Shown one piece after another: positions 46,683 through 64,000 of a stretch of 64,000 nt of DNA (positions within the stretch are counted from its first letter, which is position 1; each line of letters begins with the position of its first letter). Below the pieces are notes generated by a model. It was given only the letters and a program-made list of their open reading frames with translations. It was not told the origin of the DNA and did not search any database. The stretch covers positions 124,001 through 188,000 of the forward strand of contig NZ_BJUV01000001.1 of assembly GCF_007988805.1 (NCBI RefSeq). The letters run 5' to 3'. The DNA is from Frigoribacterium faeni. Lineage in GTDB: Bacteria > Actinomycetota > Actinomycetes > Actinomycetales > Microbacteriaceae. Position numbers and translations under genes: made by a program.

Positions 46683-46687
46683 GGTGC

Positions 46688-47350
46688 TTACTTTCTGTTC
46701 TTGATGGTGTCGAGGTCGTCAGGCTGGGTTGCCCAGTCGATGCGCGCGAATTCGAGTGCGGTGACGGTGACCTCGGTGATACGGACCGTTGGGGCACGCT
46801 TGAGCACACCAAGGGTCATATTCATTTCGCTGGTGTCCTTGAACTTTTGGTTGAATCCCGACCCAAAGATGCCCCGTTCCTGGGGTGCTTTGAGTAACAG
46901 AATGTCGATCATGTCTTCCTCCTCGGGAAGGGTTGGTGCGGGTAGGGGTTGGGCCGTGGCGGGGTCACAGACGCCGTGCCATAGCTCGTTTTTGATGGGA
47001 AAACTGAAGCCGTAGATCGGCCCGAGACGGTGAAGGGCAAGTTGCACGGGTGTGCCTGCGTAGCCCGCGCCGGAGCCGAAGTCGATGGCGTTCCCCCACT
47101 GGTGGTCGGAGGGTCGGTCGGGTGAGTACGCGGGGTTGAAGCCGGGCTTGCCCTGATTCACGAATAGGTAGTTCTGTCGCGCCCACGTGCGGGTGCCCTC
47201 GGTGTAGGTGAGGGTCGTGATGCCCGCCGCGACTACGGCAGGGTCGGCCAGCACGGCGGCGGTGAGCGCAGCGAGGTACGGCGCGACCGTTGCGTTGATC
47301 GTCTGCCCGTTACCGATTGAGACCTGCGGGCCTGCATAGTCGGTAGCCAT
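46688..47350 (-). CDS. Endolysin, M15/VanY-type peptidase
   Basis: A 220-aa lysis enzyme. The N-terminal 135 residues hold the M15 zinc-peptidase motifs: SDHQWGNAIDFG (about residues 81-92; His and Asp ligands) and ELWHGV (about 123-128; base Glu/His pair). The C-terminal 70 residues are an uncharacterised segment, perhaps for wall binding. Its ATG shares one base with the upstream stop (TAATG). Confidence 0.87.
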   Translation of the reverse strand: MATDYAGPQVSIGNGQTINATVAPYLAALTAAVLADPAVVAAGITTLTYTEGTRTWARQNYLFVNQGKPGFNPAYSPDRPSDHQWGNAIDFGSGAGYAGTPVQLALHRLGPIYGFSFPIKNELWHGVCDPATAQPLPAPTLPEEEDMIDILLLKAPQERGIFGSGFNQKFKDTSEMNMTLGVLKRAPTVRITEVTVTALEFARIDWATQPDDLDTIKNRK

Positions 47351-47760
47351 TAGCCGACCGCGACCCACGTGAATTGCACAGTGTTGCCGGTGAAGGCCTG
47401 CCCATTGCGCCCGTCATCATGCCTGTACACGCGGAAGGCGAAGTTCGTGCGCGAGATCGACCCGTTGACGACGACGGCGGTCAAGTGTTCCGGGATCGTT
47501 GATCCGGTCACGACGCTGACGGTCACCCCTTTCGGTATGACCCCGAGCCCGTGCGCGACCGAGATCGTCCCCGAGCCGTCCGTCTGCGCAGACGAGAGTC
47601 CGGCGTTGACAATGTTGCGGTTCTCGACACGTGTCGTCCGGGCCATGACGGCGGCGATCTCGTCACCGCGCCTGTTGTCGTTCTCGTAACCAAGTCTGAT
47701 GTCTTGGTTGCTTGTGTACGTTGCGAGCCCTGCGGCTGCTGCTGCGTCTCCGATTGCCAT
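47350..47760 (-). CDS. Small tail-region protein, probable fibre or tip component
   Basis: A 136-aa protein. The N-terminus is Ala-rich and helical, followed by a beta-rich part with GSGTISVAHGLGVIPKGVTV and VQFTWVAVG, a layout common in minor tail proteins of actinophages. Good ribosome site (AAGGAA). The function is inferred from position between the tail tip and endolysin genes. Confidence 0.65.
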   Translation of the reverse strand: MAIGDAAAAAGLATYTSNQDIRLGYENDNRRGDEIAAVMARTTRVENRNIVNAGLSSAQTDGSGTISVAHGLGVIPKGVTVSVVTGSTIPEHLTAVVVNGSISRTNFAFRVYRHDDGRNGQAFTGNTVQFTWVAVG

Positions 47761-47770
47761 TTTGTGTTCC

Positions 47771-49525: not shown

Positions 49526-50445
49526 ACGATCACCTCGCGGAAGGCGACGCTGACAAGCCAGAAGACGCGCCCCTCAACGTTGAGCTCACGGGTGATGGAG
49601 CCGTCCGGCACGTAGGCCATACCAATGGTGGTCAGGTGGTCGTCACGGAACTTCAGGACGCCGGTGCCCGAGTGCATTAGCTCGCACTCGTAGGCGTCAG
49701 CCTCGGTCAAGAATTTGTAGGTCAGCGTCCCGGTGCGGAGTCCGGCAGGCGAGAGGGCCGCGTCCTGACCGCCGCCGAGCACGTCGTGGAAGACGTTCTT
49801 GGACTCGCGGTTGGACTCGTAGCCGACAACCTGAATGGGATTTGAGGCTGCGGTGCGGGCGTCACTCGACCCGTCGAAGTACGTCTGATCGTTCTGCGCC
49901 TCGGTGATGAGCACGGAGTCCCAGCGGATTACGTCTGCGGCAAGCTCCGAGCCGTTGTAGAGCCTGATAAGAGGTGCGTTCGCACCGACCGTGAAAGTGA
50001 CGGCAAGGCGGCGGGTATCTCCCGCAATATTCAATGCGGCGGCGCTTTGCAGAGCAGCATTTTCGACGGCGTTATATACGACTACGCGGCGCGCACGTGC
50101 GTCCAAGGCCGTGCTCGTCTGCGCTGCGGGGACCTGGATATCGGCGCTGACCGTGTACGTAGTGCCCTGTGCAAGGCCATCGAAGGTGACTGTGAGGAAC
50201 GAGTCCCGGGATGCGGAGCCGTCCGGTGTAAGACCAACGGACGCGCCGCCCGAGGTGGACCACTCGGTCACGCGCGTCTGCGTCACGCGGTTGCCCGTAT
50301 TACTTCCGGCCTCAACTTGGGGTCGGGATGCGTAGTTTGTGCGCGCAACGACGCCACGGGTTACCTCTTGCGAGGTCGTGGCGTTAGCGGTGCCGGTCCA
50401 GCGGTATGCGCTGACAATTTCGGTACTTGTAATTTGGCTGCTCAC
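49522..50445 (-). CDS. Distal-tail-like protein with a second carbohydrate-binding-like module
   Basis: A 307-aa tail protein. Residues 25-200 repeat the landmarks of the module in the next gene (LDARARRVVV, LIRLYNGSE, TYFDGSS). The C-terminal 100 residues (LTYKFLTEADAYECELMHSG ... VFWLVSVAFREV) resemble distal-tail proteins. The N-terminus (SAYRWTGTANATTSQ) looks like the end of another copy of the same module. Confidence 0.75.
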   Translation of the reverse strand: MSSQITSTEIVSAYRWTGTANATTSQEVTRGVVARTNYASRPQVEAGSNTGNRVTQTRVTEWSTSGGASVGLTPDGSASRDSFLTVTFDGLAQGTTYTVSADIQVPAAQTSTALDARARRVVVYNAVENAALQSAAALNIAGDTRRLAVTFTVGANAPLIRLYNGSELAADVIRWDSVLITEAQNDQTYFDGSSDARTAASNPIQVVGYESNRESKNVFHDVLGGGQDAALSPAGLRTGTLTYKFLTEADAYECELMHSGTGVLKFRDDHLTTIGMAYVPDGSITRELNVEGRVFWLVSVAFREVIV

Positions 50446-52754
50446 GGCACGCCTACTCCCTGGCGTGTGCCGAATTGAGATGAAAATGTGGACTGGGTGC
50501 GGGCGGTGACGTCCGCGGCGAAGCTCTGACCGTCGAGGGCCCGCTGCACGTCGCGCGGATCGACAACGAGGCGGACCCGAGCGGTGAGCGCTGCGGTGTC
50601 AAGCTCGGACTGCGCCTGCGAGGCGAATGAGCCCGAAGCGGTCGGCGTGATGGCGGGTGTGTCGGTGACGAGATTGGTCAGGGCACGCATCGATGCGCGG
50701 ACCGGTGCTAGCTCTGCGAGACCACCGGCGAAACCCTTCACCGCGAACACGGCGAGTTCCTTCATGCGGCGCGACGGCGAAGCGATACCCAGCGTGGATT
50801 TCACGTTGCTGAGCAATGACCGACCGATGTCGGCAGCGATGGACCCGATGCGTCCGAAGCTCCCCCGCACACCGGCGACAAGACCTGAGACGATCTGCCC
50901 GCCCGCGGACACGAGGAGGCTCCCCAGGTTGCCGACTGCGGAACGGACCTGACCGGGAAGCTGACGGAAGAATGCGACGGCAGCGCTCAAGCCGGTGCGG
51001 ATGCCAGCACCGAGGTTCCGGACACCCGCGACGATTGACGACCAGATGCCCGAGAAGAATCCGACCAGGGCGGAAGCGCCAGCGCGGAGACCCGCTACAG
51101 CCGTTTGGAAGACCGCTTTGATTCGGCCCCAGACGCTCGACCAGAGGTCACCGAGAGAACGGACGGCACCGCTGAAGTTGCCACTGAAGAGGGCGCTGAT
51201 CGCCCGGACGGCAATAGTCAACGCACCAGCGATGACCTTGACCACAAAGGTAATGACTTGGATGAGGACGTTCAGGACGGGGACCAGGGCGGAGACGATG
51301 ACACCGACAAGACCCAGGATCGGGGTCAAAATGACGGTAAAGAGTTCTATCAGCGGTGTGAGGACCGCTGCGGCAAGCTGGATCAGCGGTGCGATCAGGG
51401 TTAGGACGGCGGCGACCAGGGGCAGGATGGCACCCGTGATCAGCGGCATGATCGCCGTTAGCAGCGTCGAGATGACCGTTGCAACGAGGGTGATGATGGG
51501 CGCGAGGGCGACCAGGATCGTCGTCAGGACAGGCCCCAGAGCACTCACAAGCTGGCCGATGATCGGGGCCAGCGTCATGAGGATGGTGACGAGGGCTCCA
51601 CCGATGGTCCCGGCTACCTCTGCAATGACCGGGGCAAGGGTGACGAGCACCCCGGCGAGGGCGCCGACAAGCTGGATCACAACGGGCATCACGGCGGCCA
51701 CGACGGTCCCTAGGACAGTCCCGAGGCTCGTAGCAAGCTGCACAACGGTCGGCAGAAGTGCAACGAATGCACCGCCGAGGGCCGCACCTAGAGCAGCGAA
51801 CGTCGGAGCAACGGTTGAGGCGTTAGTGCGCAAGTAGTTGAAGACCTGGGCCAGAGGGGACACAGCGGTAGCGATACCTAGGAATTGCTTCACCACGTCT
51901 GCTGCGGGGAACGTCCCAGAAATCAGAGTCGAGATGACGCCGTTGAGGCCAGAGACGAACGAGGCGAACCCCTCGGAGTCGTTCAGGCGGACCAGGAAGT
52001 CATTGACGAGGGTCAGTGCACCCTTGATGGAGGGCATCAGGCCGGAGGCCAGGGACTCGGTGACGGTGCCGAATTCGTTGCCGATCTTGGCGACGAGACC
52101 GGACGTGGTGGAGCCGAACGCGGCAGCGGACCCGCCGAACTCTTTGTTGACTTCGGCCAGGATGATGCCCTGCGCACCCGCCATGTCACCCGCGGCCTGC
52201 ATGGCAGCGACCTGCTGCTTCTGCTGATCGGTGAACGTGACACCTTGCTTGGTGAGCTTGCTGAGACCTGCCGTGGGGTCGTTCAGCGCCTTACCAAGAG
52301 TCATCGACGCAGACTTCACGTCAGTGCCCATGGCAACGGAGAGGTCTAGGGCTGACTTGGTGGCCGCATCGAAGGTCGTGCCCTTGATGTTCGTGAACGT
52401 GAGGAGCATGTTCTGCCCCTCTTGGATCGACTCGGCCTCAACGCCTGTCAGTCGTTCAAGTGCGCCGTTAAGCGTGTTGATTTGCTCAACGGAGCGCCCC
52501 GCAGCACCGCCCGTTGACTTCACAACGGCCTCGGTCTGCGCGTTCAGGCGCTCAATGCGGGCGAGGCTCTTAACGGCCTCAACCCCGAGGGCACCGATGC
52601 CGATAGCGGCAGCGCCGAGGGCTGCGGCGGCACCGAGGGCACCGAGCTTTGCAACCTTGCCGAGCTTGCCGAATCCGTTGGACACGTCGGAGAGACCCGC
52701 GGTTGCCTTTTTGGTGTCGGCAAGCACGCTGACGATGACGGTCTGTCCAGCCAT
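50442..52754 (-). CDS. Tail tape measure protein
   Basis: A 770-aa protein that sets tail length. Alpha-helical N-terminal part (LSDVSNGFGKLGKVAKLGALG...), a long hydrophobic middle with regular Pro-Ile/Val-Ile repeats (about residues 310-510), then LWSSVWGRIKAVFQTAVAGL repeats and a C-terminal SPSRRMKELAVFAVKGFAGGL segment typical of actinophage tape measures. At this size a tail of roughly 110-120 nm would be expected. Confidence 0.93.
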   Translation of the reverse strand: MAGQTVIVSVLADTKKATAGLSDVSNGFGKLGKVAKLGALGAAAALGAAAIGIGALGVEAVKSLARIERLNAQTEAVVKSTGGAAGRSVEQINTLNGALERLTGVEAESIQEGQNMLLTFTNIKGTTFDAATKSALDLSVAMGTDVKSASMTLGKALNDPTAGLSKLTKQGVTFTDQQKQQVAAMQAAGDMAGAQGIILAEVNKEFGGSAAAFGSTTSGLVAKIGNEFGTVTESLASGLMPSIKGALTLVNDFLVRLNDSEGFASFVSGLNGVISTLISGTFPAADVVKQFLGIATAVSPLAQVFNYLRTNASTVAPTFAALGAALGGAFVALLPTVVQLATSLGTVLGTVVAAVMPVVIQLVGALAGVLVTLAPVIAEVAGTIGGALVTILMTLAPIIGQLVSALGPVLTTILVALAPIITLVATVISTLLTAIMPLITGAILPLVAAVLTLIAPLIQLAAAVLTPLIELFTVILTPILGLVGVIVSALVPVLNVLIQVITFVVKVIAGALTIAVRAISALFSGNFSGAVRSLGDLWSSVWGRIKAVFQTAVAGLRAGASALVGFFSGIWSSIVAGVRNLGAGIRTGLSAAVAFFRQLPGQVRSAVGNLGSLLVSAGGQIVSGLVAGVRGSFGRIGSIAADIGRSLLSNVKSTLGIASPSRRMKELAVFAVKGFAGGLAELAPVRASMRALTNLVTDTPAITPTASGSFASQAQSELDTAALTARVRLVVDPRDVQRALDGQSFAADVTARTQSTFSSQFGTRQGVGVP

Positions 52755-52827
52755 TTTGTGCTACTTTCAACGTGGAATAGTGTGGGCCCCGGCAGAGAAC
52801 GGAAACTCTGCCGAGGCGGCATAGGGG

Positions 52828-53210
52828 TTACTTGCGTTTGTTTGCCTCGCGAATGATCGCGTCCCGCTGGCGAACGGTCAGGGCGTGGTATTCGGAGGGC
52901 GCGACGCCCAGATGCACGACGAACTTCGCGAGATCGTCGGCCCTCCGCTGGACTAGTTTTTTACTTCGGGGTCCTCGTCATCACCGAGGCCGATGATCGC
53001 GTTAGCGGCGGTAAGGGTTAGCTGCGCGGCGTCCACGGTTGTGTACTCGGGGCTCCCCGTGCGGCGCTTGACGATTACGACTAGGGCCATGAGAAGGTCG
53101 CCCTTTGGTGCGTCGTCATCCCCGATGCTCCCTAAGGAGAGACCGGTGGTCTTCTCTAGGAATGCCACCTCGCCGAGGGTGAGGGATTCGAAATCAAACT
53201 TGCTAGACAT
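52828..53210 (-). CDS. Tail assembly chaperone, frameshifted long product (G-T type)
   Basis: Reading starts at 53210 and shifts -1 at the slippery heptamer A AAA AAC (52962-52956) just before the stop of the short form; it continues from base 52956 for 42 codons (LVQRRADDLAKFVVHLGVAP...) to TAA at 52828-52830, giving 127 aa. The tail of the extension (RQRDAIIREANKRK) is typical of actinophage GT proteins. Both forms bind the tape measure during tail assembly. Confidence 0.88.
52953..53210 (-). CDS. Tail assembly chaperone, short product (G type)
   Basis: An 85-aa acidic protein (start MSSKFDFESLTLGEVAFLEK, end EDPEVKN) directly before the frameshift extension and the tape measure gene. It is the major, unshifted product. 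Confidence 0.88.
   Translation of the reverse strand: MSSKFDFESLTLGEVAFLEKTTGLSLGSIGDDDAPKGDLLMALVVIVKRRTGSPEYTTVDAAQLTLTAANAIIGLGDDEDPEVKN
52956..52962 (-). promoter_or_regulatory. Programmed -1 frameshift site A AAA AAC
   Basis: Perfect X XXY YYZ heptamer in the zero frame GTA AAA AAC TAG, with the stop codon immediately behind, which gives a stalling context. Confidence 0.85.
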
Positions 53211-53224
53211 TGCTTTTCCGTTTC

Positions 53225-53602
53225 TTATTGAAGATCGTTGCGGCGAAGGATTTCGCCTATACCCTGATCCAGGGTTGAGATCGCATTACCCTTTTGAGCT
53301 TCTGCTGCCTCGTTGAGGAATCGTGTTCCGGGGATGTTGCGGGCGGGCCACCCGTAGTTCTGCACGCCCGCGTATTTGGCTTTCACTCCCCCCGCTCGGA
53401 CTACAGCCTTTGTTGCGCCGCGTCCTGCACGGATACTTCCTGCGAGGGCTCCCGATTTGACGGGAGGTTGTGCTGCGTTGACAATCAAGGTGCCTATTTC
53501 GTGCATGAGGTCTTTCATGTCCTGCATATCGGCACCGCTCTGGCGGAGGGCGCGAATTGTTTTATTCAGGCCCTCCACCTTGACGGTCACCGGCGCGGCC
53601 AT
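53225..53602 (-). CDS. HK97 gp10-like head-tail/tail component
   Basis: A 125-aa protein: TVKVEGLNKTIRALRQSGAD near the start, APPVKSGALAGSIR-type segment (QPPVKSGALAGSIRAG) and Gly-Trp-rich end (YGWPARNIPGTRFL). This is the pattern of HK97 gp10 family proteins. Start chosen at MAAPVTVKVEG. It lies between the major tail and chaperone genes. Confidence 0.82.
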   Translation of the reverse strand: MAAPVTVKVEGLNKTIRALRQSGADMQDMKDLMHEIGTLIVNAAQPPVKSGALAGSIRAGRGATKAVVRAGGVKAKYAGVQNYGWPARNIPGTRFLNEAAEAQKGNAISTLDQGIGEILRRNDLQ

Positions 53603-53604
53603 TC

Positions 53605-54021
53605 TTAGCTGACCAATGTTGTTACTTCGCCGACAACTTTCCACTCAAAATCAGCAGTCCAGTCATCCCCGCTTACCTGGGCGTCTCCACCGAGATCGGG
53701 GCGGTTACCGATACGGACCGTGCCGGTAAAAATGGGCTTATCTGCGGTTGCAGTCGTATTTAGTCCGGGTGCAAACTTGAACGCGATCTCCTTACCAGAG
53801 TTTGCCCAGGCATAGCGCCAGAAGCTTGAACTGGTAAGGGACTGGATCATCGTTCCGGCGATTGAGGCCTGCTGAGTTGTGCCCTTGGAGGCGTCCTCGA
53901 AGGTCACCGTGCCGGAATCTGAATCGGTGTGAAGTATGCGGACATTAGTTGCGTCGGCGGCAAAGTCAGTTGTGCCAACTGTGAATACGAGGCCGGAGCC
54001 TTTTAGCCGTGTGCTAGGCAT
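53605..54021 (-). CDS. Major tail protein
   Basis: A 138-aa beta-rich protein (GTVRIGNRPDLGGDAQVSGD, DDWTADFEWKVVGE) in the usual position before the chaperone genes. Small for a major tail protein but with the expected strand pattern. Assignment by position and composition. Confidence 0.75.
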   Translation of the reverse strand: MPSTRLKGSGLVFTVGTTDFAADATNVRILHTDSDSGTVTFEDASKGTTQQASIAGTMIQSLTSSSFWRYAWANSGKEIAFKFAPGLNTTATADKPIFTGTVRIGNRPDLGGDAQVSGDDWTADFEWKVVGEVTTLVS

Positions 54022-54030
54022 TTTGATTCC

Positions 54031-54411
54031 TTAGAGATCGATGGTGAAAGAGATTTGGATGGTTTGAGACAGGTACGCGATGCCGTTGAGCGTGATGCTT
54101 TGAGGCTGATCGGCCCCGTTGACGGAGATGCCCGCGGACATGAGAGCGGTGATAGCGGAGGAGATGTTGTCGTCTACTTCCTGCGTGACCTTTTCGTTGC
54201 CTCCACGGGCCGATACGTACGTGACTTCAAGGTTCAAAGTCGCCGTGGCGAAGGTCTGGCCTGAAGAGAGGTACGGGCTATTCGGGGTGACAAGATAGGC
54301 GGGGAGCACAGTGCGCTCGGGAATGTACGTGTATGCCGCTCCGTCGTCCCCAATGAGGTCTGCGAGGATGACGCGCACAAATTCACGCTCTGCGGCGAGG
54401 TCGAGACTCAT
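54031..54411 (-). CDS. Tail terminator/completion-like protein
   Basis: A 126-aa protein (REFVRVILADLIGDDG, LEVTYVSARGGNEKVTQEVDD). Position between the connector and major tail protein genes suggests a tail terminator. No direct family motif is recognised. Its start overlaps the previous gene by four bases. Confidence 0.65.
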   Translation of the reverse strand: MSLDLAAEREFVRVILADLIGDDGAAYTYIPERTVLPAYLVTPNSPYLSSGQTFATATLNLEVTYVSARGGNEKVTQEVDDNISSAITALMSAGISVNGADQPQSITLNGIAYLSQTIQISFTIDL

Positions 54412-54713
54412 GCGAACCCCAATCCGACAAAGGGCTGAAGCAACGGGTAGACGCTCACCAGGGGGTCGCGGTTCACTCGCATGGGTGCCCCGTCCGCTGT
54501 CGCGAACTGGCTGATCCCCATGGGTGCGGACTTGCGCTGGAAGACCTCGGAAGCGGCGACGAGATACGAGTAATCGCGCACCCCAACGGGGACCACGGCA
54601 CTGCCGACATACTGATCTACTAAAGCGACACCTGTTGTCAGGGCGCGCTCTAGATCAGCGTCGTCGCGGGCCGTGATCCCGACGTAGCTCCGAAGGTCAT
54701 CCAACGTGATCAT
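54408..54713 (-). CDS. Head-tail connector (gp6-like)
   Basis: A 101-aa protein with start MITLDDLRSYVGITARDDADL and a helical core (ALTTGVALVDQYVG), the pattern of HK97 gp6-type adaptor proteins. Directly follows the capsid gene. Confidence 0.78.
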   Translation of the reverse strand: MITLDDLRSYVGITARDDADLERALTTGVALVDQYVGSAVVPVGVRDYSYLVAASEVFQRKSAPMGISQFATADGAPMRVNRDPLVSVYPLLQPFVGLGFA

Positions 54714-54715
54714 GC

Positions 54716-56230
54716 TTACGCAGCCTTCAAAGGCACGATGCCATTAGGAAGCTCGTTAGCGATAGCTGTGTAGCTGTAGACGCTGAAGTCCTTGGAAAGG
54801 TTGATGATGTTATCGTCCTGCAAGCGGACAAGAGGGCTGCGGAATTCGCGGAGCGCATTCGTGTTGATGAACGCGTTCTTGTTTGCAGGGAGCTTGGGGT
54901 CAAGCACGATACGAACACCAGCAATGTCGCCGGTTAGAGACTTAACAGATACGGCACCAACGTTGTTTGTACCGGCACCCGTGATAAGGAAGACGGGGCG
55001 TCCATCACTGCCTTGCAGAGCGATGAGCTTCTTGAAGGTCGCGGTGTCAACAACGAGGGCGTCAAGGGAGAGGCCATTGTCGGAGTAAATACCCGATGCG
55101 TCAACGATTGCGTTGATCCAATCAACATAGGTCGCGGATGCACCAGGAGCAGTAACAGTGTTGTTGTTAGTGGTCGAGGTTGCTACAGCCTTAACGTATT
55201 CAGTGCGGAATAGCGTGTTGAGGGCCTTTCCGGCGGCGATTGCCTGAGCGTTGAGGCTGGCGTTCAGGATGTTGAGGCTGCTGCGCTCAATCTCCTGGCG
55301 GGAAAGCTGCGTGTAGCCACCGATGGTCTTTACGGGTGCGAACTTGGTTTCTAGCTGCACCTTGCCGAAGACGAGATCGTCGCCCTCGTTGGCCTGTACG
55401 GCAACAACAGAGGAGTCGCTCTTCAATTGCCCGTACTCAACGTTTAGTCCTTCAGAAGGGAGAGTGCCGCTGGCGAAGAGGGCACGGAGTGGTGCCGCCT
55501 CTTCGATCAGGCGAGTGAGGTCTCCGACCCATGCGTCCTTAACTACAGAGTCAGCAGTGGTGCCACCTGTATAAGCGCGTGTGGTCTCAGCGTCACCCTT
55601 GGCGATAGCCTTAAGAACCTCACCAGCGGAGCGGTTGTCGGTCGTAAATGCAGGCTCACCCTGCTCGGATAGTCGAGAGTTTGTGACCTCTAGACGGCGG
55701 TCTAGGGCCTCAATAGAAGTGCGGAGTTCTGCAACTTCTGCAGTTGCGTCGGTGCTTTCTGACACGGGAATTTCCTTATTGGTTGGGGTGGCCTCACGGG
55801 CCTCGGTGATGGTTGCGCCGGAATAGGCGGGGAATGTAACGGCGGAGACCTCGCGGAGGTCTACGCGGGTGCGGACGATGAGTCCGTCGTCTTCGGTGCG
55901 CTGCTCAACGGGAATGAAGCCGACCGAGAAGCGGTCAACTACGCCGTCTTTGAGAAGCGCGCGGGCGTCGCGGCCCTGAGTGGTGTCGCTGATCTGGGCA
56001 CGAATAAATAGGCCGTCCTCGCGATCCTCAGAGGCGATGACCTTCCCGATGACCTCGCGGTGTTGCCAGAACAACTTCACGTCGGTCGCGTCGATGGAGC
56101 CGCGTTCGAACATCTCTTCGAACCGTCCACCGATGGTGGCGCGCTCGTTCCAGGGGACGGCGATGCCCTCAACGACGCCGGAGTCGGCGTCGGCTCGTAG
56201 CTCTACGGAGCGGGTTTCAATGGCGGTCAT
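54716..56230 (-). CDS. Fused prohead protease-major capsid protein (HK97 fold)
   Basis: A 504-aa fusion. Residues 1-150 are an HK97 (U35) protease: EGIAVPWNE, His in FWQHREVIG and Ser in VDRFSVGFIP. A linker and scaffold-like coil follow (AEVAELRTSIEALDRRLEV, about 165-185), then the capsid domain from about residue 220 (TRLIEEAAPLRALFASGTLP; IGGYTQLSRQEIERSS). Self-cleavage should release the capsid protein. Single-frame coding was read without a stop. Confidence 0.9.
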   Translation of the reverse strand: MTAIETRSVELRADADSGVVEGIAVPWNERATIGGRFEEMFERGSIDATDVKLFWQHREVIGKVIASEDREDGLFIRAQISDTTQGRDARALLKDGVVDRFSVGFIPVEQRTEDDGLIVRTRVDLREVSAVTFPAYSGATITEAREATPTNKEIPVSESTDATAEVAELRTSIEALDRRLEVTNSRLSEQGEPAFTTDNRSAGEVLKAIAKGDAETTRAYTGGTTADSVVKDAWVGDLTRLIEEAAPLRALFASGTLPSEGLNVEYGQLKSDSSVVAVQANEGDDLVFGKVQLETKFAPVKTIGGYTQLSRQEIERSSLNILNASLNAQAIAAGKALNTLFRTEYVKAVATSTTNNNTVTAPGASATYVDWINAIVDASGIYSDNGLSLDALVVDTATFKKLIALQGSDGRPVFLITGAGTNNVGAVSVKSLTGDIAGVRIVLDPKLPANKNAFINTNALREFRSPLVRLQDDNIINLSKDFSVYSYTAIANELPNGIVPLKAA

Positions 56231-57399
56231 TCGGTTACCTCAGGGGTCTCGGGAGTGGGAGCCGGCGATGCGGACTTGAGGTCGTCGCCGCCCGCTAGAG
56301 GCGCTAGGCCTTCGATGGCGCGGACCTCGTTGACGGTCACGAATCCGGCTCCGAGCGCTACGGCGTGGGCGGCATAGCGGGTCGTGGTGTCGGCGCGGAG
56401 TAGGCCCTCAAAGTTCCCGCGGACGACGCCGAGGCCGGGGACGAGAGTGGACAGAGCGTCCTCAATCTCGGAGACATAGGCGGTGAGAGAGAAGCGGGCG
56501 AATTCGGTCCACGCCTGGGAGACGTTGCTGTAGGTCTGCGAGGTGCCCTGCACGTCAGCTAGGAGGAGTGCTGCGGGGATGCCGAAGATGCGGGCGATGC
56601 CGGTCGTGGAGAAGCGCTGGGCTTCAATCCATTGGGCGTCCTCGGGGCTTAGGAAGATCGGGTTGTAGTTGAGCCCGTTGCCGAGTACGCGAACCCCGTA
56701 GCCGTTGTTTTCCCAGCGGGCTTTGGCCTCTTCGGCGGACTCGGGAGTGAGGCTCTGGTCGGACTTGAGGATGCCGGTAGGTGTGTCGGTGTCGCGGAAC
56801 CAATTTGCTGCGTAGTCTCGCGTGTCTATCGCACCACGAAGCTCGGACTGGGCGGCCTGAATGGGACCGAGACCGAGCGCTTGCCCGGGGATGCGGGTCA
56901 GGCGAAGGTGACGGACGCGCTCAGGACGCAAGTAATCGGAACCGGTGCGGTACCCCTTGACGGTCCCTGCGCTGTCTACATCAACCTGCGTGGCCTGCGG
57001 GTCGAGCACGGTGACGTTGAGAACCTTGCCCGAGGCGTCGCGGTCAACGCGCCAGAAAGCATTACCCGTGAGCGCCATGCTGGTAACGGTTGTTTCCACA
57101 AAGCTGCGCTGTGACATATCGGCGGAAGGCTGACGGATGAACGTAGGCGAGTTGGCAACAAGGCGGTCGCCGCGGTACACGTCAAGGGAGACCTGCTTGG
57201 CCGCGGTGCTGATGAGCGCTACGGCCCGGTAGACAGTCCCGAGCGTCACGGCCTGTTCGGTCGTCACGCCGGTAGCGCTGGGCGCGCGCGAAGGAATGCG
57301 GTGCGCGAGACGGTTGTCGGCGGACGTGGAATCGGGCGGAGTCACCGTGCTGTCAGCACGGGACTCGACGCCCCAAAACCAGTCACCGAAACGGCTCAA
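56227..57399 (-). CDS. Portal protein (HK97 family)
   Basis: A 390-aa portal: SRFGDWFWGVESR start, VTTEQAVTLGTVYRAVALIS (about residues 43-62), FRDTDTPTGILKSDQ and the FGIPAALLLADVQGTSQTYS segment. It forms the DNA entry ring. Its last codons overlap the capsid fusion gene by four bases. Confidence 0.93.
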   Translation of the reverse strand: MSRFGDWFWGVESRADSTVTPPDSTSADNRLAHRIPSRAPSATGVTTEQAVTLGTVYRAVALISTAAKQVSLDVYRGDRLVANSPTFIRQPSADMSQRSFVETTVTSMALTGNAFWRVDRDASGKVLNVTVLDPQATQVDVDSAGTVKGYRTGSDYLRPERVRHLRLTRIPGQALGLGPIQAAQSELRGAIDTRDYAANWFRDTDTPTGILKSDQSLTPESAEEAKARWENNGYGVRVLGNGLNYNPIFLSPEDAQWIEAQRFSTTGIARIFGIPAALLLADVQGTSQTYSNVSQAWTEFARFSLTAYVSEIEDALSTLVPGLGVVRGNFEGLLRADTTTRYAAHAVALGAGFVTVNEVRAIEGLAPLAGGDDLKSASPAPTPETPEVTE

Positions 57400-57410
57400 C
57401 GTTTTTCCCT

Positions 57411-57437
57411 ACATTCGAATGTTTATACTTAACATTC
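57411..57437. promoter_or_regulatory. Operator-like palindromes in the promoter of the structural genes
   Basis: A perfect 12-base palindrome (57411-57422, ACATTCGAATGT) overlaps a perfect 7-7-7 inverted repeat (GAATGTT, 7 bases, AACATTC; 57417-57437), so three half-sites lie in 27 bases. The surrounding 57400-57467 gap is AT-rich with a -10-like TATAAA on the minus strand, directly before the portal start. Confidence 0.6.
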
Positions 57438-57467
57438 TACCTGATATATAGGGTGGTGAGTTGAGGG

Positions 57468-58877
57468 TCAGAACAATTGGAGTCCCATATCGACGTTATT
57501 CTCCGCAACATAGACGGCATTGACGGTCGCTATTACGGAATCAATATCCATAAGTGTTGGCCCTTTAATGAGCCGATAGTCATCTCCACGCGCTTTGGTC
57601 GCCGTGCGGGGTATCTGCATCGTCAGCAGAAGGTCTCCCCCATGCCGTATTTCCTTATGTGCAACCTTCGAATAGAACAAGGAAGCCCCGGAATACACGT
57701 CCCCGACGTTGATAAACCGGACAGGCATACCGCGTCCCTTGAGGCGGAGCCCAAGTTCCCTGAGATTGAATGAGTCAACTACGAAAGTTGCGACACCTTT
57801 CGCGTACAGGGCGATGCACAAGCGCTCTAGCTGATCGATGGTGGGGTTGCGGGGCCACGCGACCAACTCGGTGAAAAGTGTTCCGTCTTCGCGCTTGATG
57901 GCGGCGGCGAAGGTCGCGGCGGACCAGTCGTTGGTGCGGTCGATGCTGATGACGGGTCGACCCTTGGGGAACGCCTCTGTGCTGGCGCACTGCGTCCACA
58001 TCCCGAGGTCCATCCAGCCGGAGTTTCCGGAGATGAAACGGTTGAGGTAGTAGCGGATGGCCTCGCTCTTCGGCAGTCCTCGCACGTCAGACATGACCGC
58101 CTCAACGTCCTTGTATCCGCCCTGAACGGCCGGATTTGCGGCGGTGATGTATTGGGCCAGGGTCTCGTCATCGTCCGGCACACGGGCCTCAGGGGCGTCG
58201 TAGATCACCGCGTAGAAGCGATCAAGCTCCCCCGCAAAGCTCTTCTCGGCATTGACGTAGAGACGCTGCAGTAGCTCCGACTCGTCATCACCTGCGGTCG
58301 TGGCACCGAAGACGAGCGTGTTCCGGCGTCCACCCGTACCAGCTACCAGGGCATCCCAGACTTCAGGCTTGAGAAGGTGAAGCTCGTCGCACACCGCGCC
58401 CGAGACAGGGATGCCCTGGAGGCTCGCACTTGATGACGCCTTTAACTCGTAGCGTCCACCCGCTACAGCACGGATACCGCGTGTCTCGGTGAGCTTTTTG
58501 AATCGACTGGCAAGCGCGGGGTTGGACTGAATGACCGAAAGGGTCCTGTCATAAATCAGCGCCGCTTGCTCGCGACTGCGGGCCACGCCGACCACATACG
58601 CCCCGCGGAGATCGCGGAGCAAAAGATATAAACCGAATGCTGCGGTGAGTTCACTTTTACCAGCCTGGCGGCCCACGCTAAGGAACGCCTGGCGGTGTCG
58701 TAGCTGACCGGCGCGCTTGTGGCCCTCAGGGTATTGCTCGGTCGCGCCTCGCAAGATATCGACCTGCCACTGAGCGAGCGAGTACCCGGTACCCGATTTC
58801 CAGGCACGCTGAATCACCGGCAAATAGGCATCGATATCGGCGGTGAATTCCGGGGACAGGGGTGGGGTACTTCGCAT
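57468..58877 (-). CDS. Terminase large subunit
   Basis: A 469-aa packaging motor: ATPase with Walker A GRQAGKSE (about residues 69-76) and Walker B VCDELHLL (about 163-170), then an RNase-H-like nuclease half (ISIDRTNDWSAA, about 300-311). Length fits phages packaging from cos ends. It starts five bases after the small subunit. Confidence 0.94.
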   Translation of the reverse strand: MRSTPPLSPEFTADIDAYLPVIQRAWKSGTGYSLAQWQVDILRGATEQYPEGHKRAGQLRHRQAFLSVGRQAGKSELTAAFGLYLLLRDLRGAYVVGVARSREQAALIYDRTLSVIQSNPALASRFKKLTETRGIRAVAGGRYELKASSSASLQGIPVSGAVCDELHLLKPEVWDALVAGTGGRRNTLVFGATTAGDDESELLQRLYVNAEKSFAGELDRFYAVIYDAPEARVPDDDETLAQYITAANPAVQGGYKDVEAVMSDVRGLPKSEAIRYYLNRFISGNSGWMDLGMWTQCASTEAFPKGRPVISIDRTNDWSAATFAAAIKREDGTLFTELVAWPRNPTIDQLERLCIALYAKGVATFVVDSFNLRELGLRLKGRGMPVRFINVGDVYSGASLFYSKVAHKEIRHGGDLLLTMQIPRTATKARGDDYRLIKGPTLMDIDSVIATVNAVYVAENNVDMGLQLF

Positions 58878-58882
58878 GGCGC

Positions 58883-59146
58883 TTACCGCTTTTCGAGAGC
58901 GGCAAGCTCAGCCTCTAGAGGGTCGATGGTGACCGGGTTTGCCATCGCGTCCACACGCTTTACAAGGTTCCGATATACCAGTCCGAATTGGCTCTGAAGT
59001 GCGCCTTGGCTCGGATCGTCGTCTAGCTCCTTCGCCAGACTGCGGAGTTGCACGAGTGCCGGGGTGTCGGTCGCGGTTAGCTCGGGATGAGCGGCAATGA
59101 ATTTGCGTACCGCGCCCATATAAGTGGTCGGTAGTCGGTCGGACAT
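58883..59146 (-). CDS. Terminase small subunit
   Basis: An 87-aa helical protein (MSDRLPTTYMGAVRKFIAAH ... PTVDPLEAELAAL-type end) directly before the large subunit gene. Assignment is mainly by position and size. Confidence 0.75.
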   Translation of the reverse strand: MSDRLPTTYMGAVRKFIAAHPELTATDTPALVQLRSLAKELDDDPSQGALQSQFGLVYRNLVKRVDAMANPVTIDPLEAELAALEKR

Positions 59147-59230
59147 TTCAAATCTTTCAGAGTTGGTTTGTGAAAAGAAGAGGTTGAGGCGGGGTGATCT
59201 GGGTGCCCTCAGAAAAGCCCCCGGGTCGGA

Positions 59231-59494
59231 TCAGAGCCGATCAAGCCATTTCGGGTTGAATCCCGACATGCGAACGAGTTCTTGTGCTCCTTTTGAGGAG
59301 TTGTCAGACCGGCATGATGCAATGAGATTGGTCAGCTCATCTGTGCCGCCATTGGCCTTAGCTATTAGGTGATCGACCGTTGCGTCTGCACCCTCAAGGT
59401 GCTTGCCACACCACGCGCACTGCCAGTTATCGCGTGCCAATACCTGCGCCCTCAGCCGATCCCACTCAGGCCCGTGTGAACTGTGCTGACTCAC
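59231..59494 (-). CDS. HNH endonuclease
   Basis: An 87-aa HNH nuclease: CAWCGKHLEGADATVDHLIAK (zinc Cys pair and catalytic His) and TNLIASCRSDNSSKG (about residues 53-67). Phage HNH proteins beside terminase take part in cos cleavage. A GTG start overlaps the upstream stop (GTGA). The frame is open further upstream, so an unshifted longer protein or a frameshift fusion is possible. Confidence 0.83.
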   Translation of the reverse strand: MSQHSSHGPEWDRLRAQVLARDNWQCAWCGKHLEGADATVDHLIAKANGGTDELTNLIASCRSDNSSKGAQELVRMSGFNPKWLDRL

Positions 59495-59694
59495 GAAACA
59501 GCCCGCCTTCCACGTGCGTAAGCAGCGTGTGCGGCACGGCAGCACTGCTCCCTGCATCCCCTGCCATACCCGCCCTCGGTGCCGTGTGGGACGGGCGCTG
59601 AGGTGCTGGCCAGCCACACGCGGCGGTAGTGCGGCGTGCACAGCCCCTTGGCGTACAGGGGGCGTTCACACCCCTCTTCCTGGCATATCTTCAT
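59491..59694 (-). CDS. Small zinc-finger-like protein ahead of the HNH gene
   Basis: A 67-aa protein MKICQEEGCERPLYAKGLC.PHY with paired Cys and a Cys-x-x-His, then a Cys-rich stretch CREQCC. Related DNA-binding heads are found fused to HNH nucleases, so this may be the N-terminal domain of a gene now split or read by frameshift. Translationally coupled to the HNH gene. Confidence 0.65.
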   Translation of the reverse strand: MKICQEEGCERPLYAKGLCTPHYRRVWLASTSAPVPHGTEGGYGRGCREQCCRAAHAAYARGRRAVS

Positions 59695-59748
59695 GTATCT
59701 ATTATCTCATGCTATATATCACATGAGTGCGGCCAAGGGAGATTAGTC

Positions 59749-59770
59749 CGACTTCCTATATGGGAAGTCG
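59749..59770. promoter_or_regulatory. Palindromic operator candidate
   Basis: Two perfect 8-base arms, CGACTTCC (59749-59756) and GGAAGTCG (59763-59770), 6 bases apart. It lies in the divergent control region 59695-60099, which holds no gene. Confidence 0.5.
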
Positions 59771-59849
59771 TGCTTATCTGAGTGTTGCTGATTTCCCCTA
59801 AACAAACTTGGAACAGTTTGAATTGAGTATGTATCCCACCAACCCACGG

Positions 59850-59877
59850 TTGACAAGGAGAAAGTTGTTAGTACTCT
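59850..59877 (+). promoter_or_regulatory. Consensus promoter for the primase transcript
   Basis: Perfect -35 TTGACA (59850-59855), 16 bases, then -10-like TACTCT (59872-59877). Predicted start about 59884-59886, upstream of the leader RNA structure. Confidence 0.65.
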
Positions 59878-59884
59878 TCAATCA

Positions 59885-60000
59885 AAGTGTTCAAGCCGTG
59901 CAATCATAGATATATGGCACGCTCGACACCTGCCATTCATATAGACCACCCCGCCCTCCCTTATGCGTGTCGAGCCGCATAACGTTGAGGGCGGGGCTTT
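59885..60000 (+). ncRNA. Predicted structured leader RNA with kissing loops
   Basis: Hairpin 1: ATGGCA / TGCCAT (59914-59919 with 59931-59936), 11-base loop. Hairpin 2: 59949-59958 pairs with 59987-59996 and 59961-59967 with 59976-59982, apical loop TGTCGAGC (59968-59975). This loop is perfectly complementary to GCTCGACA (59921-59928) in loop 1. CTTTCCG follows, so hairpin 2 may end transcription. The remaining 60001-60099 stretch leads to the primase ATG without further visible structure. Confidence 0.5.
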
Positions 60001-60099
60001 CCGTTAGGAATGAAATGCAACCGATCACATGGAGTGAAGCGCACTCGATGCTCACTCAGATTCTTGAACTAACCACCTCAATGACAGAGAGCAACGACA

Positions 60100-61638
60100 A
60101 TGACTGACCTAGTCGGGCAGGGTGAGCCTGCTGAAGTAGATTTTGACAAAGTGGCCGCGTTCTACACGGCATTTCAAATGCAAGACTCGCTTCTTGCCGA
60201 ATTGCTTGCTGAAGGAAGCATCGCGGGCGCTAATTGGAGCGAGGCGATTGCTGACCCCATGACGACGTACCTCGCATGGACTCGTGATCGCGGGTGGCTC
60301 CACTGGGAAGGGAAGGTATGGGTCTCCATCCCCGACCCCTCCGCTACCGAACTCGTGCGCCGGGAACTCAAGCTGCTCTTCGGCATGCTCTGCTCGCGAC
60401 CCGATGTGGACGCCCACCATGTGAAGACTCAGTACGCCCAACTGCTCACCGAGTCCAAGGCCAAAAAGGTCACGTTCTTCCTCAAGGGGCTACTCACTAG
60501 GCAGCCCGATTGGTTCGACCGTGAGCCGGATCTGATCAACTGCCAAAACGGAGTGCTGGATCTCCGGACCGGAAGCCTGCATCCACACGCCGCTCGGTGG
60601 TACATGACCAAAATCACGGATGCGGAGTATCACCCCCGCGCCAAGCACGCCGACTGGAACCGCGCGCTTCAGGCGATGCCAACTGATATTCACGACTACA
60701 TGCAGGCCCGCTATGGACAGGCCATCACCGGATATCCCACAGATGACGACGTACTTCTCGTCCAAACGGGCGGAGGGCAGAACGGAAAATCGACCATCGT
60801 CAACGCCATCGTGTCGGCCCTGGGCGGGTACGGCGGGTTCGTGCCGGAGAAGGTCTTGCTGGCCAACCCAGGTGAGCACCCGACAGAACTCATGACGCTG
60901 CGCGGCACCCGCATGGCCGTAATCGAGGAGACCCCAGAGGGTCATCGCCTCCCTACGAAGAGGCTCAAGGACCTCGTTGGAACCCCGGTCATGACTGCGC
61001 GCGCGATGCGTCAGGACTTCGTGTCGTGGAGCACCACGCACACCCTGTTCCTCAACACGAATTACGTTCCCCAAGTAGCTGAGACAGACCACGGCACCTG
61101 GCGTCGTCTACAACTCGTCAAGTTCCCATACAAGTTCGTAGACCCCAACGATCCACTCATGGCCCCCAACGAGAAACACGGTGACCCCGGCCTACGAGAT
61201 CGCATCCGCTACAACAAGGATCGCCAGCTTGAGGCCGTGCTGGCCTGGGTGGTCGAGGGCGCGATGAATTACTACACGAACGGCAAGCGCCAGTTCTCGG
61301 TACCCCTCAGCATTCAGTCCGACACGCAAGCTTGGCGCGAAGAGGCGGACCTGATCTTGGCGTACAGCAAGGAGCGCCTCACGTTCGAACCGTCCTCGTC
61401 TGTTGCGACGACCGAACTCTACGAAGACTTCTCGACGTGGCTGAAGGACTCAGGACGTTCGACTTGGAACGATCAGACGTTCGCCTCGCGGTTTGGCGGT
61501 CACGATCTCGCGGATCGAAACCACGTGACGAAGGTTCGAACGTCTTCACACGCTAGCATCGTGCGTCGAATCGGTGGTGGCTTCGCTCCACCGCTCCCCA
61601 CCAAGGTCAACGTCTGGAAAGGCGTTTCGTTTAACTAG
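60100..61638 (+). CDS. Phage primase/helicase, D5/P4 family
   Basis: A 512-aa replication protein. The D5-type N-terminal region (LINCQNGVLDLRTGSLHPH, about residues 146-164) is followed by an SF3 helicase: Walker A GGGQNGKSTI (about 225-234), Walker B MAVIEET (about 271-277), the sensor region TLFLNTNYVPQV and an end segment resembling the D5 C-terminal domain. The primase-polymerase domain found in longer members is missing, so the protein is likely a helicase or has a shortened N-terminus. It is the only rightward gene of the visible phage part. Confidence 0.9.
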   Translation: MTDLVGQGEPAEVDFDKVAAFYTAFQMQDSLLAELLAEGSIAGANWSEAIADPMTTYLAWTRDRGWLHWEGKVWVSIPDPSATELVRRELKLLFGMLCSRPDVDAHHVKTQYAQLLTESKAKKVTFFLKGLLTRQPDWFDREPDLINCQNGVLDLRTGSLHPHAARWYMTKITDAEYHPRAKHADWNRALQAMPTDIHDYMQARYGQAITGYPTDDDVLLVQTGGGQNGKSTIVNAIVSALGGYGGFVPEKVLLANPGEHPTELMTLRGTRMAVIEETPEGHRLPTKRLKDLVGTPVMTARAMRQDFVSWSTTHTLFLNTNYVPQVAETDHGTWRRLQLVKFPYKFVDPNDPLMAPNEKHGDPGLRDRIRYNKDRQLEAVLAWVVEGAMNYYTNGKRQFSVPLSIQSDTQAWREEADLILAYSKERLTFEPSSSVATTELYEDFSTWLKDSGRSTWNDQTFASRFGGHDLADRNHVTKVRTSSHASIVRRIGGGFAPPLPTKVNVWKGVSFN

Positions 61639-61639
61639 G

Positions 61640-61726
61640 TGGACAGGGGTGGACAGGGGTTCATTGTTCGTCTCCTAGTAATCATCTCTAGAGAACAAAC
61701 CAAGTACCCCTGTCCACCCCTGTCCA
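61640..61726. terminator. Long bidirectional terminator built from tandem 10-mers
   Basis: Perfect 21-bp inverted repeat (61640-61660 with 61706-61726). Each arm is two direct copies of the 10-mer GGACAGGGGT or its complement. The loop itself contains TTGTTC / GAACAA pairing. It lies between the convergent primase and 248-aa genes. Confidence 0.7.
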
Positions 61727-61734
61727 GTCGAATC

Positions 61735-62481
61735 TCACAAAATTACGTCTCCCCGGGTCCTAGACCGATGATAAGTAAAGACCGCTGGCATCACCGTGCT
61801 AGTAAGCTCCCGGTCAAATATGCCCGTAATGCGCCATGATCCTTCTTGATCCGGAACCGGCTCAACGATGGAGCCCGAATTTTTGATGGTGTACACCGCA
61901 TCAACGTCCGAATCATTTGGTCCGCGATAGCTCAGCACGAACTGTCCTGCTGTTGGAGTGCCCTCACCGTCTTTGTCTTGATACTTATGTGCACCAATCC
62001 AGTGAGACAACGCATACTCGATCTTGTACTCACCCTTGGTCACTTGGTTCGGCTCTACGATGAGAACGTGCACTCGGTGTAAACCCCCTACACGGAACCC
62101 GCTGCTGGCCTTGAGTTCAATCGGCACTTGGCCGTCGTTGCGGATTTCAACGTCGACCAACACTCGCAAGCGGATTGACTCGTCACGTGGCAACCGAAAA
62201 ATCGTGTTGTCTTCAACAGTCGTCTCTTTCAAATTTGGACCCGGCATCGTCACGTCGGTCATCACGTACCGAGACGCTGAGATGATCAGTTGCGGCGCCC
62301 GCGCGTCAAGGCGAGCGATCTGAGCCTCTCGCAGCGTGTCTTGAGCTACAGCAACCGCCGCTTCAGCGGACTGAGCGGACCGTTTCGTGTAGACAGCCTG
62401 AAACGCCACCACGACGGCGGAGGCAGTCGTACCGATGGCGGCACCGATGGTTGCGACCACCGACCATTCGTTGAGTTCCAT
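61735..62481 (-). CDS. Phage protein of unknown function with N-terminal helix
   Basis: A 248-aa protein not recognised. It has one membrane helix (about residues 8-30), a short coiled coil (AAVAVAQDTLREAQIARL) and a beta-rich C-terminal domain (LRVLVDVEIRNDGQVPIELKASSG). Single-helix proteins like this may be superinfection-exclusion or envelope proteins; nothing in the sequence decides. Its place between integrase and replication genes is a typical moron position. Confidence 0.72.
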   Translation of the reverse strand: MELNEWSVVATIGAAIGTTASAVVVAFQAVYTKRSAQSAEAAVAVAQDTLREAQIARLDARAPQLIISASRYVMTDVTMPGPNLKETTVEDNTIFRLPRDESIRLRVLVDVEIRNDGQVPIELKASSGFRVGGLHRVHVLIVEPNQVTKGEYKIEYALSHWIGAHKYQDKDGEGTPTAGQFVLSYRGPNDSDVDAVYTIKNSGSIVEPVPDQEGSWRITGIFDRELTSTVMPAVFTYHRSRTRGDVIL

Positions 62482-62544
62482 TCATGTAGTTTGGCAGATC
62501 ACAGCACATCGTCCATGTCAGACGCCACGGCCAGGAAACGAACA

Positions 62545-62571
62545 ACGGCCCTGCCGATGAGGCAGGGCCGT
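62545..62571. terminator. Terminator after the 61-aa gene
   Basis: Perfect 11-bp GC-rich stem (62545-62555 with 62561-62571), 5-base loop, followed on the plus strand by a T-rich stretch. Confidence 0.85.
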
Positions 62572-62582
62572 CGTTTCGTTCG

Positions 62583-62768
62583 TTACGTCAACAGATCGAA
62601 CAGGTCAGTGACGTTCACAACCAAGTACGTGACCGCCACAACAAATTTCGTCATGGCGGATACGATCATGTTGATTGCACGCGCGACGCTGTTGAAATGT
62701 GCCGCACGTTCGTCAATTTTGTCCTTGACTGCGCTAGACTGGGGCATGCCCCGATGTTGAGTACTCAT
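62583..62768 (-). CDS. Small phage membrane protein
   Basis: A 61-aa protein with a polar N-terminus and one hydrophobic helix (about residues 32-54, INMIVSAMTKFVVAVTYLVV). A strong ribosome site (AAAGGAACG) precedes its ATG and its own terminator follows, so it is probably real and well expressed. Function unknown. Confidence 0.7.
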   Translation of the reverse strand: MSTQHRGMPQSSAVKDKIDERAAHFNSVARAINMIVSAMTKFVVAVTYLVVNVTDLFDLLT

Positions 62769-62836
62769 GACGTTCCTTTCGTTGGGTGCCGCCGCGGTGT
62801 GAGACTCGAAAACTCACCGTGACAACAGAATTGATG

Positions 62837-62871
62837 CAGCCCCGTAGCTCCTGCCAGAGCTAACGGGGCTG
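62837..62871 (-). terminator. Terminator downstream of the integrase gene
   Basis: A 14-bp stem (62837-62850 with 62857-62871, one bulged A). It would end the leftward integrase transcript. The rest of 62769-63093 holds no supported gene. Confidence 0.78.
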
Positions 62872-63093
62872 TGTCTTGCGACATAGCCCTAACGGGCATT
62901 GTCGATTCTACATCTGGCTAGAGGCGTTCGTGGGGAAACTGCTCCCGGGAGACAAATCGGCCGACTTTCTTTCTCTCTTGTCCCCGCCTTCTACGCTCAT
63001 ACGGTGTCACAGAGTGGTTTTTGTACCCCGAATTTCTTTCTCTTCTATCTGAAGACCTTCGGCGTGTCGCACTGCCTTCGACTCTTCCTGGGG

Positions 63094-64000
63094 CTAGCTC
63101 AGGGGCTCGACAACAAGCCTTTCCACATCTCGGCTCGGACTCTTCGGATACTTGCGGGCCGAATGGATCGTGATACGGAAGCTCGTACGGAGGATTTCCC
63201 TCTGCCTCTCGATACCGAGCGACGCCCAAAACTCTGGCCATCCGGCCTCGTCTCCGTTGTCCGCTTGAGCCTCAGCCCACATCCGTTTCACCTCGGCGGC
63301 AAGGTCAGCGGAAGCTAGCTGTCCCCGCTCGCGAGCAATCGACTCCCCCACTTCCAACGAGAGCGCGTCGATCTCGGACAACTCGCGTCGGATGCGAGCC
63401 ATGTCGATGCCGGGCATCATGGCCAGTTCGGTGACTTGCGTACGTCGTGTAGATAGTTCTGCGGACTCGGACAGAAGCTTGCGGATCGTGTTCGACTCGT
63501 GAGCGGTGTCATGCGGCGTGCCTTGCGTAAGGAAGCGCCATCCGATCTCCTCAATGACGATGCTGTCCGCCACGTCTTTTCGGATGAAGACGTGGTTGCC
63601 GTTCGTGTTGCCACAGCGGTAGCCGCGCATCATTACGAGTGGTCCACCGCATTCACCACAGATTGCAATGTTGGACAGCAGGTGTTTGGCGACATTGCCC
63701 GGACTCGTGCGGCGGCTCGGATCAGCGAGAATCGCGCGTGCGGCCTCGGCATCCTCACGAGATACGAGTGGCGTGATGGCCGTCCCCTCAGTCACAACAC
63801 CCTGATGCTGCACCTGCCCGCCGTACGCCACCACGTTGATGAGGTCCCGCACACGGCGCGGTTCCCACCGGACCACCTTCGAGTTGGCCCGGGGCACCCC
63901 CTCGGCGTTCAGTTCCTTCGCGAGGCCGTAGACCGTGCCTCCGGACAGTATGTGCGCGAATGCCCGCCGTACGATGACGGCCTCTTCTTCGCGGGGCGTC
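63094..64000 (-). CDS. Large serine integrase, C-terminal part
   Basis: The gene begins beyond the window; the reading frame is open to the last base. Visible parts: the end of the recombinase domain (EEEAVIVRRAFAHILSGGTV, GLAKELNAEGVPRANS), the zinc ribbon with CGECGGPLV and RGYRCGNTNG, and a coiled-coil region (about 63300-63480 in DNA) before the C-terminus. The missing N-terminal part holds the catalytic serine. Large serine integrases cut at short attP/attB sites without a long core; this one should have acted at dprA. Confidence 0.92.
   Translation of the reverse strand, partial: TPREEEAVIVRRAFAHILSGGTVYGLAKELNAEGVPRANSKVVRWEPRRVRDLINVVAYGGQVQHQGVVTEGTAITPLVSREDAEAARAILADPSRRTSPGNVAKHLLSNIAICGECGGPLVMMRGYRCGNTNGNHVFIRKDVADSIVIEEIGWRFLTQGTPHDTAHESNTIRKLLSESAELSTRRTQVTELAMMPGIDMARIRRELSEIDALSLEVGESIARERGQLASADLAAEVKRMWAEAQADNGDEAGWPEFWASLGIERQREILRTSFRITIHSARKYPKSPSRDVERLVVEPLS

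Follow-up and report, generated by a model that had tools for sequence, protein, structure and literature searches.

The rep genes of plasmids pT181 and pIP501 are controlled by leader attenuation, in which an antisense RNA acts on production of the replication protein through kissing loops. The pRNA of phage phi29 is a single RNA with two mutually complementary loops and assembles into multimers. In P4, the CI RNA keeps the replication genes off, because transcription ends prematurely within a leader that carries complementary segments (PMC4825925). The same source presents IsrK of the prophage Gifsy-1 as a short terminated RNA that arises, together with a read-through mRNA, from one prophage promoter (PMC4825925).

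Positions 59910-59996 of the window (the whole 64-kb stretch of Frigoribacterium faeni DNA analysed here) contain two tandem hairpins whose loops are mutually complementary over nine bases. An earlier sequence-only reading had reported a perfect loop match of eight bases; the complementary hairpin loops are indeed where it placed them, but the match covers nine. The parts of the leader and the genes that follow it are these:

59899 to 59904, forward strand: -10-like hexamer TGCAAT, ending 5 nt before hairpin 1 when the five leaders described below are set on hairpin 1

59910 to 59942, forward strand: hairpin 1, with arms ATATATGGCA (59910-59919) and TGCCATTCATAT (59931-59942; the 3' arm reads TGCCAT-TC-ATAT), from the sequence, the fold from 59907 and the covariation of helix 1 in alignment A14

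59921 to 59929, forward strand: L1, the kissing sequence of loop 1, GCTCGACAC, the 9-nt complement of L2

59949 to 59996, forward strand: hairpin 2, terminator-like, with lower stem CCCCGCCCTC (59949-59958) and GAGGGCGGGG (59987-59996), from sequence, fold and covariation

59967 to 59975, forward strand: L2, the kissing sequence of the hairpin 2 apical loop, GTGTCGAGC, from the sequence, the exact-word search and the kissing covariation

59997 to 60009, forward strand: CTTTCCGTTAGGA, a short U-tract (CTTT) followed by the Shine-Dalgarno-like GTTAGGA

60015 to 60107, forward strand: 30-aa ORF that overlaps the primase start by 8 nt

60100 to 61638, forward strand: D5_N primase/helicase, the replication gene 3' of the leader (Pfam D5_N 1.4e-18; PHROG DNA primase 2e-68)

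The lower stem of hairpin 2 has ten pairs and is G+C-rich, and the upper stem has seven pairs (TTATGCG, 59961-59967, with CGCATAA, 59976-59982) closed by the loop TGTCGAGC. Between the two stems lie a C-G pair (59959/59984), a C.C mismatch (59960/59983) and a UU bulge (59985-59986). The 10-bp GC-rich base followed by CTTT and the primase about 100 bases downstream, both of which the sequence-only reading had described, agree with the sequence and with the D5_N gene that starts at 60100. The 30-aa ORF may encode a leader peptide or be a small gene that is coupled.

The window shares with P4 CI the complementary segments in a leader 5' of a replication gene. However, the processed CI RNA of P4 pairs with the outside sequences seqA and seqC, whereas the partners here are two adjacent hairpin loops, one of them in a terminator-like hairpin; no exact 9-mer that could represent an outside target of the seqA/seqC kind was found in window positions 44501-64000. 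In pT181 and pIP501, the partner is a countertranscript from the opposite strand, whereas here it lies on the same strand and in the same RNA; a consensus scan of 59600-60250, which misses the leader's own promoter as well, detected no opposite-strand promoter. The two complementary loops recall the phi29 pRNA, but the window RNA consists of tandem hairpins without a three-way junction, leads to a replication gene and has no apparent packaging link. IsrK differs in its action, which turns on translation from the read-through mRNA and leads on to an antiterminator; in the part of the source available, a loop-loop kiss with its terminator is not described (PMC4825925). In outline, the element may work like P4/IsrK leader control, a likeness that we do not take as membership.

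Two hairpins with complementary loops ahead of a replication operon were found at five loci, namely the window and four further mini-phage or prophage loci (L004, L107, L109 and L157); the second hairpin is terminator-like in these four as well, and the loop words differ among all five. L004 contains the nearest relative of the window primase (61% identical) and showed, on reading upstream, the same layout with the loop words AATCTCAC and GTGAGATT. L109 encodes the protein nearest to the replication protein of L107 (62%), and the element is present there as well. L004 and L109 were fetched by their replication proteins, independently of the kiss, and L107 (a prophage of genome G024) and L157 were found by the kiss scanner. 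The downstream gene is a RepA-type ATPase in L107 and L109, and in L157 an 88-aa ORF is followed by a D5-type helicase; the Shine-Dalgarno-like GTTAGGA is common to the window, L107 and L109. Hairpin 2 contains a bulge or internal loop with extra bases on the 3' side in four of the five loci, and has no bulge in L157, which was detected by the scanner alone.

Downstream of the L004 primase, a 60-aa Hfq/Sm-like protein is encoded (L004:4684-4863, forward strand), whose match to Pfam Hfq_1 (4.8e-4) is below the cut-off. The best of five structure models reached pLDDT 79 and pTM 0.54, and the other four had pLDDT 40-45; the best Foldseek matches of the protein were Hfq, at E 2.8e-3, with none below 0.001. 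The presence of this protein behind the L004 primase is suggestive, but among the loci searched the L004 contig alone yielded one of this kind.

Covariation was analysed in alignment A14, which contains the window, L004, L107 and L109 and was fitted to the structure. In these four alignable loci, the kissing register begins with GUG at the 5' end of L2 and CAC at the 3' end of L1. All 33 kissing cells are Watson-Crick pairs; six of the nine columns changed on both sides and three are invariant. Double changes were found in 18 of 27 stem pairs, and 93.5% of 107 stem cells are paired, compared with a shuffle mean of 63.0% and at most 47.0% in slid versions; these covariation figures are strong but not independent, because the alignment was structure-fitted and comprises four sequences. 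Loops that change without compensation in homologous phages, which the sequence-only reading had regarded as telling against it, were not what we found: the loop changes are compensated.

The cognate kissing energies are -15.1 kcal/mol for the window, -8.6 for L004, -11.4 for L107, -14.7 for L109 and -10.1 for L157. For every L1, the L2 of the same locus is the strongest partner, and of the 120 possible assignments across the five loci the cognate one has the most favourable total energy. Orthogonality is incomplete, since at about -9 kcal/mol the L107 L2 also binds two foreign L1 words, those of the window and L109.

A scan for the whole architecture (a kiss of at least 8 and a hairpin 2 of at least 15 pairs) returned a single site on both strands of the 64-kb window, which is the leader itself, and the same architecture appeared in 0 of 2000 dinucleotide shuffles of the 260-nt window leader. 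A stricter scanner misses the window element, whose C.C mismatch and UU bulge are above its limit, and a wider version was applied to the window. With the strict scanner, the whole architecture arose in 1, 0, 5 and 0 of 1500 shuffled leaders each for L004, L107, L109 and L157, the figures for L107 and L157 being biased and descriptive only because both loci were picked by the kiss search. An 8-nt complement of the apical loop within 75 nt upstream was reached by 42 of 20000 shuffles for the window and 192 of 20000 for L004. The longest complements in the same 75-nt span measure 7, 9 and 10 nt in L107, L109 and L157 and were reached by 168, 52 and 7 of 20000 shuffles, respectively, with the same bias for L107 and L157.

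The fold of 59880-60002 has a z-score of -4.07, and the stability of hairpin 2 is -33.6 kcal/mol in the window and -26.1 to -37.2 kcal/mol in the other four loci. A stable G+C-rich hairpin ahead of a replication gene, as an attenuator calls for, is thus present. In the stretches searched, the exact L1 and L2 words are confined to the element in the window (44501-64000), L004, L109 (searched as L201) and L157; the 7-base words of L107 occur at three further places within its 10 kb. For four of the five loci, the stretches searched thus offer no second target, and each loop would have the opposite loop as its partner, either within the same RNA or on a further copy.

The promoter that the sequence-only reading had called consensus lies 33-60 nt 5' of hairpin 1. 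Its TTGACA is perfect and stands at a spacing of 16 from TACTCT, which, however, agrees with TATAAT at 3 of 6 positions, and the consensus scan reports no promoter; it is probably not the right one. The same scan of 59600-60250 found neither a promoter nor a terminator on either strand, and it misses the leader's own promoter too. In the predicted fold of an RNA from 59880, part of loop 1 pairs with upstream bases and replaces hairpin 1, whereas hairpin 1 forms in an RNA from 59907. A start near 59910 therefore fits better, and we infer that transcription begins there. Counterparts of the -10-like TGCAAT are TACAAT in L004, ending 4 nt before hairpin 1, and GACAAT in L157, ending 5 nt before it; in L107 and L109, TGGAAT ends merely 1 nt upstream of hairpin 1 and is a poorer fit to a -10. 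The U-tracts are weak, with CTTT in the window, TTCTTATTTC in L004, TCTTCCC in L107, TTCTTCGG in L109 and no run in L157. The earlier proposal of a short leader or attenuator is strengthened by four further loci before replication operons, with compensatory change in stems and loops, although the promoter it named is probably wrong.

L157 has a second copy, L199; the two become identical about 47 nt before hairpin 1 and stay so through it. The two differ at 41 of the 102 preceding ungapped positions, a count that an indel may inflate, and at 0 of the next 308. Both copies contain the same imperfect palindrome AGTGAAGACTCCTCACT about 18-35 nt before hairpin 1, near the -35 region, which is a possible operator.

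Because MAFFT misaligns the hairpins, relatives of the element were searched for with covariance models, both built without the kiss: R1 from L004 alone, and R2 from L109, L107 and the window. R1 scored L109 at 29.5 and L107 at 19.1 bits, both among its top matches outside L004, and the window at 16.3 bits, the last barely above the best chance match (16.1 bits); antisense L004 scored 25.8 bits. R2 scored L004 at 60.1 bits (E 1.7e-10 in 89 kb), although L004 was not fully held out because the R2 alignment had been built with R1, the L004 model. In 94 other loci, R2 found nothing convincing, and the best match, at 23.3 bits, was taken as chance; nor did it give a convincing match in the 80 terminase-related viral loci among the matches listed. 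Across 398 genomes of the family and 385 of the order, strong R2 matches were obtained in G000 and G024 (L107) only, both sources of R2 and therefore matched by construction.

Weaker candidates were rejected. For five family matches of 20.8-23.0 bits, the scanner output was chance-like, and a match in L151 (21.1 bits) proved on reading to be an ordinary hairpin without the loop pair. For the L004 leader, DNA similarity in phages gave 14 records with 19-26-base matches, which were taken as chance; the window leader gave no homologue in the same type of search. Neither the scanner nor R2 detected a comparable element in 69 viral loci with deeper primase relatives (the window and L004 contigs included), or in four GenBank phages, six Streptomyces plasmids, G193 and G025. 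The genome contigs scanned contained no relative. The element was missing from five of six other terminase-bearing genomes, one of them covered over 4.4 kb only, and from 79 of 80 terminase-related viral loci among the matches listed, many of which are short. No Rfam 15 family matches the leader at its gathering score, and the only match in the window was tmRNA at 8047-8422. In the literature searched, with subscription journals largely outside it, we found no description of a paired-loop tandem-hairpin leader. The arrangement looks conserved and like a new RNA family outside Rfam.

The leader belongs to a prophage of about 18 kb that interrupts dprA, whose C-terminal part lies at 45885-46358 and whose N-terminal part was located by reading outside the window, in L203:976-2025. 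The gene order is integrase-like recombinase, a 248-aa protein, primase (forward strand), leader, HNH, small terminase, large terminase and portal, with HNH to portal on the reverse strand. The recombinase has a Zn_ribbon_recom match slightly below the cut-off, and the small terminase assignment, made by position, is likely. The 248-aa protein (61738-62481, reverse strand) has an N-terminal segment that appears membrane-like by eye and a weak match to an uncharacterised PHROG family. The HNH gene (59231-59694, reverse strand) consists of two overlapping frames and is similarly split in L091 (4148-4384 and 4381-4647). In this sister prophage (L091, 3840-4120, and L104; terminase 83%), a RepA-type ATPase replaces the primase and the leader interval holds repeated GTGTCTAA words. 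A search for the att core yielded a 14-base match that is not convincing. No repressor-like gene was found among the prophage proteins scanned, which represent part of the ORFs.

With the 17.5-kb Microbacterium cluster EE phages, the prophage shares a large terminase of about 45% identity. These Orlajensenviridae are described, in the part of the source available, as lytic and without integrase or repressor genes (PMC7302621). They resemble the prophage in their genomes of about 17.5 kb, related large terminase, HNH and a terminase-adjacent protein, but no comparable leader was recognised by the scanner or R2 in the cluster EE phage VitulaEligans. R2 matches in this phage (L103, 14887-14958 and 15675-15749, reverse strand) scored 23.1 and 22.0 bits (E 0.0075 and 0.013), and the scanner output there was chance-like.

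We read the leader, with a probability of roughly 60%, as a kissing-loop attenuator of phage replication, a reading that builds on structures that can form, stems that covary, loop changes that are compensated and a position before a replication gene. The start, the termination and the cis kiss we infer from the letters of the DNA. A promoter just 5' of 59910 would produce a leader RNA in which a loop-loop kiss of 9 bp links the hairpins. Hairpin 2 would act as a terminator-like element, and the ribosome-binding site for the replication operon would come after it. A fraction of transcripts would stop at hairpin 2 and give an RNA of about 90 nt, and read-through would yield the primase, or the RepA-type ATPase in two relatives. 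The kiss could form while the lower stem of hairpin 2 is still incomplete. It would then set how frequently the lower stem closes and hence the amount of replication protein, in either direction. By geometric reasoning, hairpin 1, the kiss and hairpin 2 stacked in line would span about 80-105 angstrom, farther than most of the spacers can reach; because of this, the bulge may be a hinge. Completion of the lower stem may strain the kiss, so that the two compete.

The short RNA may have effects in trans as well. In a rival explanation, which we consider unlikely, the terminated RNA is an immunity or copy-number RNA that binds the nascent or read-through leader of another phage copy, L2 to L1 or the reverse, in place of the cis kiss, and the loop word defines the immunity group. 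The largely orthogonal loop words are what an immunity or incompatibility determinant predicts, although drift alone may explain why they differ, and the L107 L2 crosses to the L1 of the window and L109 at about -9 kcal/mol. The scanned part of the prophage proteins included nothing repressor-like, and leader RNAs that act on their own transcripts have precedents in P4 and IsrK (PMC4825925). The Hfq-like protein after the L004 primase would suit a trans-acting RNA, but it occurs at one of five loci. Furthermore, both partners reside in one molecule, which should favour the kiss in cis. Equally doubtful is a self-sensing attenuator, in which the terminated leader RNA would be the regulator of itself, free leader RNAs would swap partners with nascent leaders, read-through would track phage copy number, the loop word would mark the immunity group and the RNA would hold lysogeny.

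That the hairpins serve the initiation of replication, as a primer, an R-loop or single-stranded DNA hairpins for the primase, and not gene control, seems to us improbable. The replication gene adjoins the leader, and the equivalent interval of L091 has GTGTCTAA repeats that appear iteron-like by eye. However, a Shine-Dalgarno-like sequence for the following ORF comes after hairpin 2 in the window, L107 and L109, and the replication proteins encoded downstream of the element are of two unlike kinds.

The inverted repeats could double as double-stranded DNA sites, and the imperfect palindrome near the -35 region of L157 and L199 is consistent with protein operators beside which RNA structure would be incidental. 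Yet the repeats fall in hairpin loops at five loci, the stems covary too, and the bulge or internal loop of hairpin 2, larger on the 3' side, recurs in four of five, which makes this DNA-level explanation very unlikely. Least probable of all is a packaging-type multimer with molecules linked hand in hand through L1 and L2 like phi29 pRNA: the RNA is short, has two complementary loops and lies near terminase genes, but it folds without a three-way junction, is opposite in strand to the packaging genes and leads the replication operon of a phage with an ordinary large terminase and a likely small terminase assigned by position.

If the kissing-loop attenuator reading is true, some of the smallest tailed phages would control their replication by a 90-nt RNA whose specificity resides in two words of 7-9 bases. 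The leader would represent a compact attenuator of natural origin, of which largely orthogonal variants already exist. It would also offer a testable answer to the silence of mini-prophages with no repressor among the proteins scanned, in which an RNA switch may contribute to whether or not the virus replicates.
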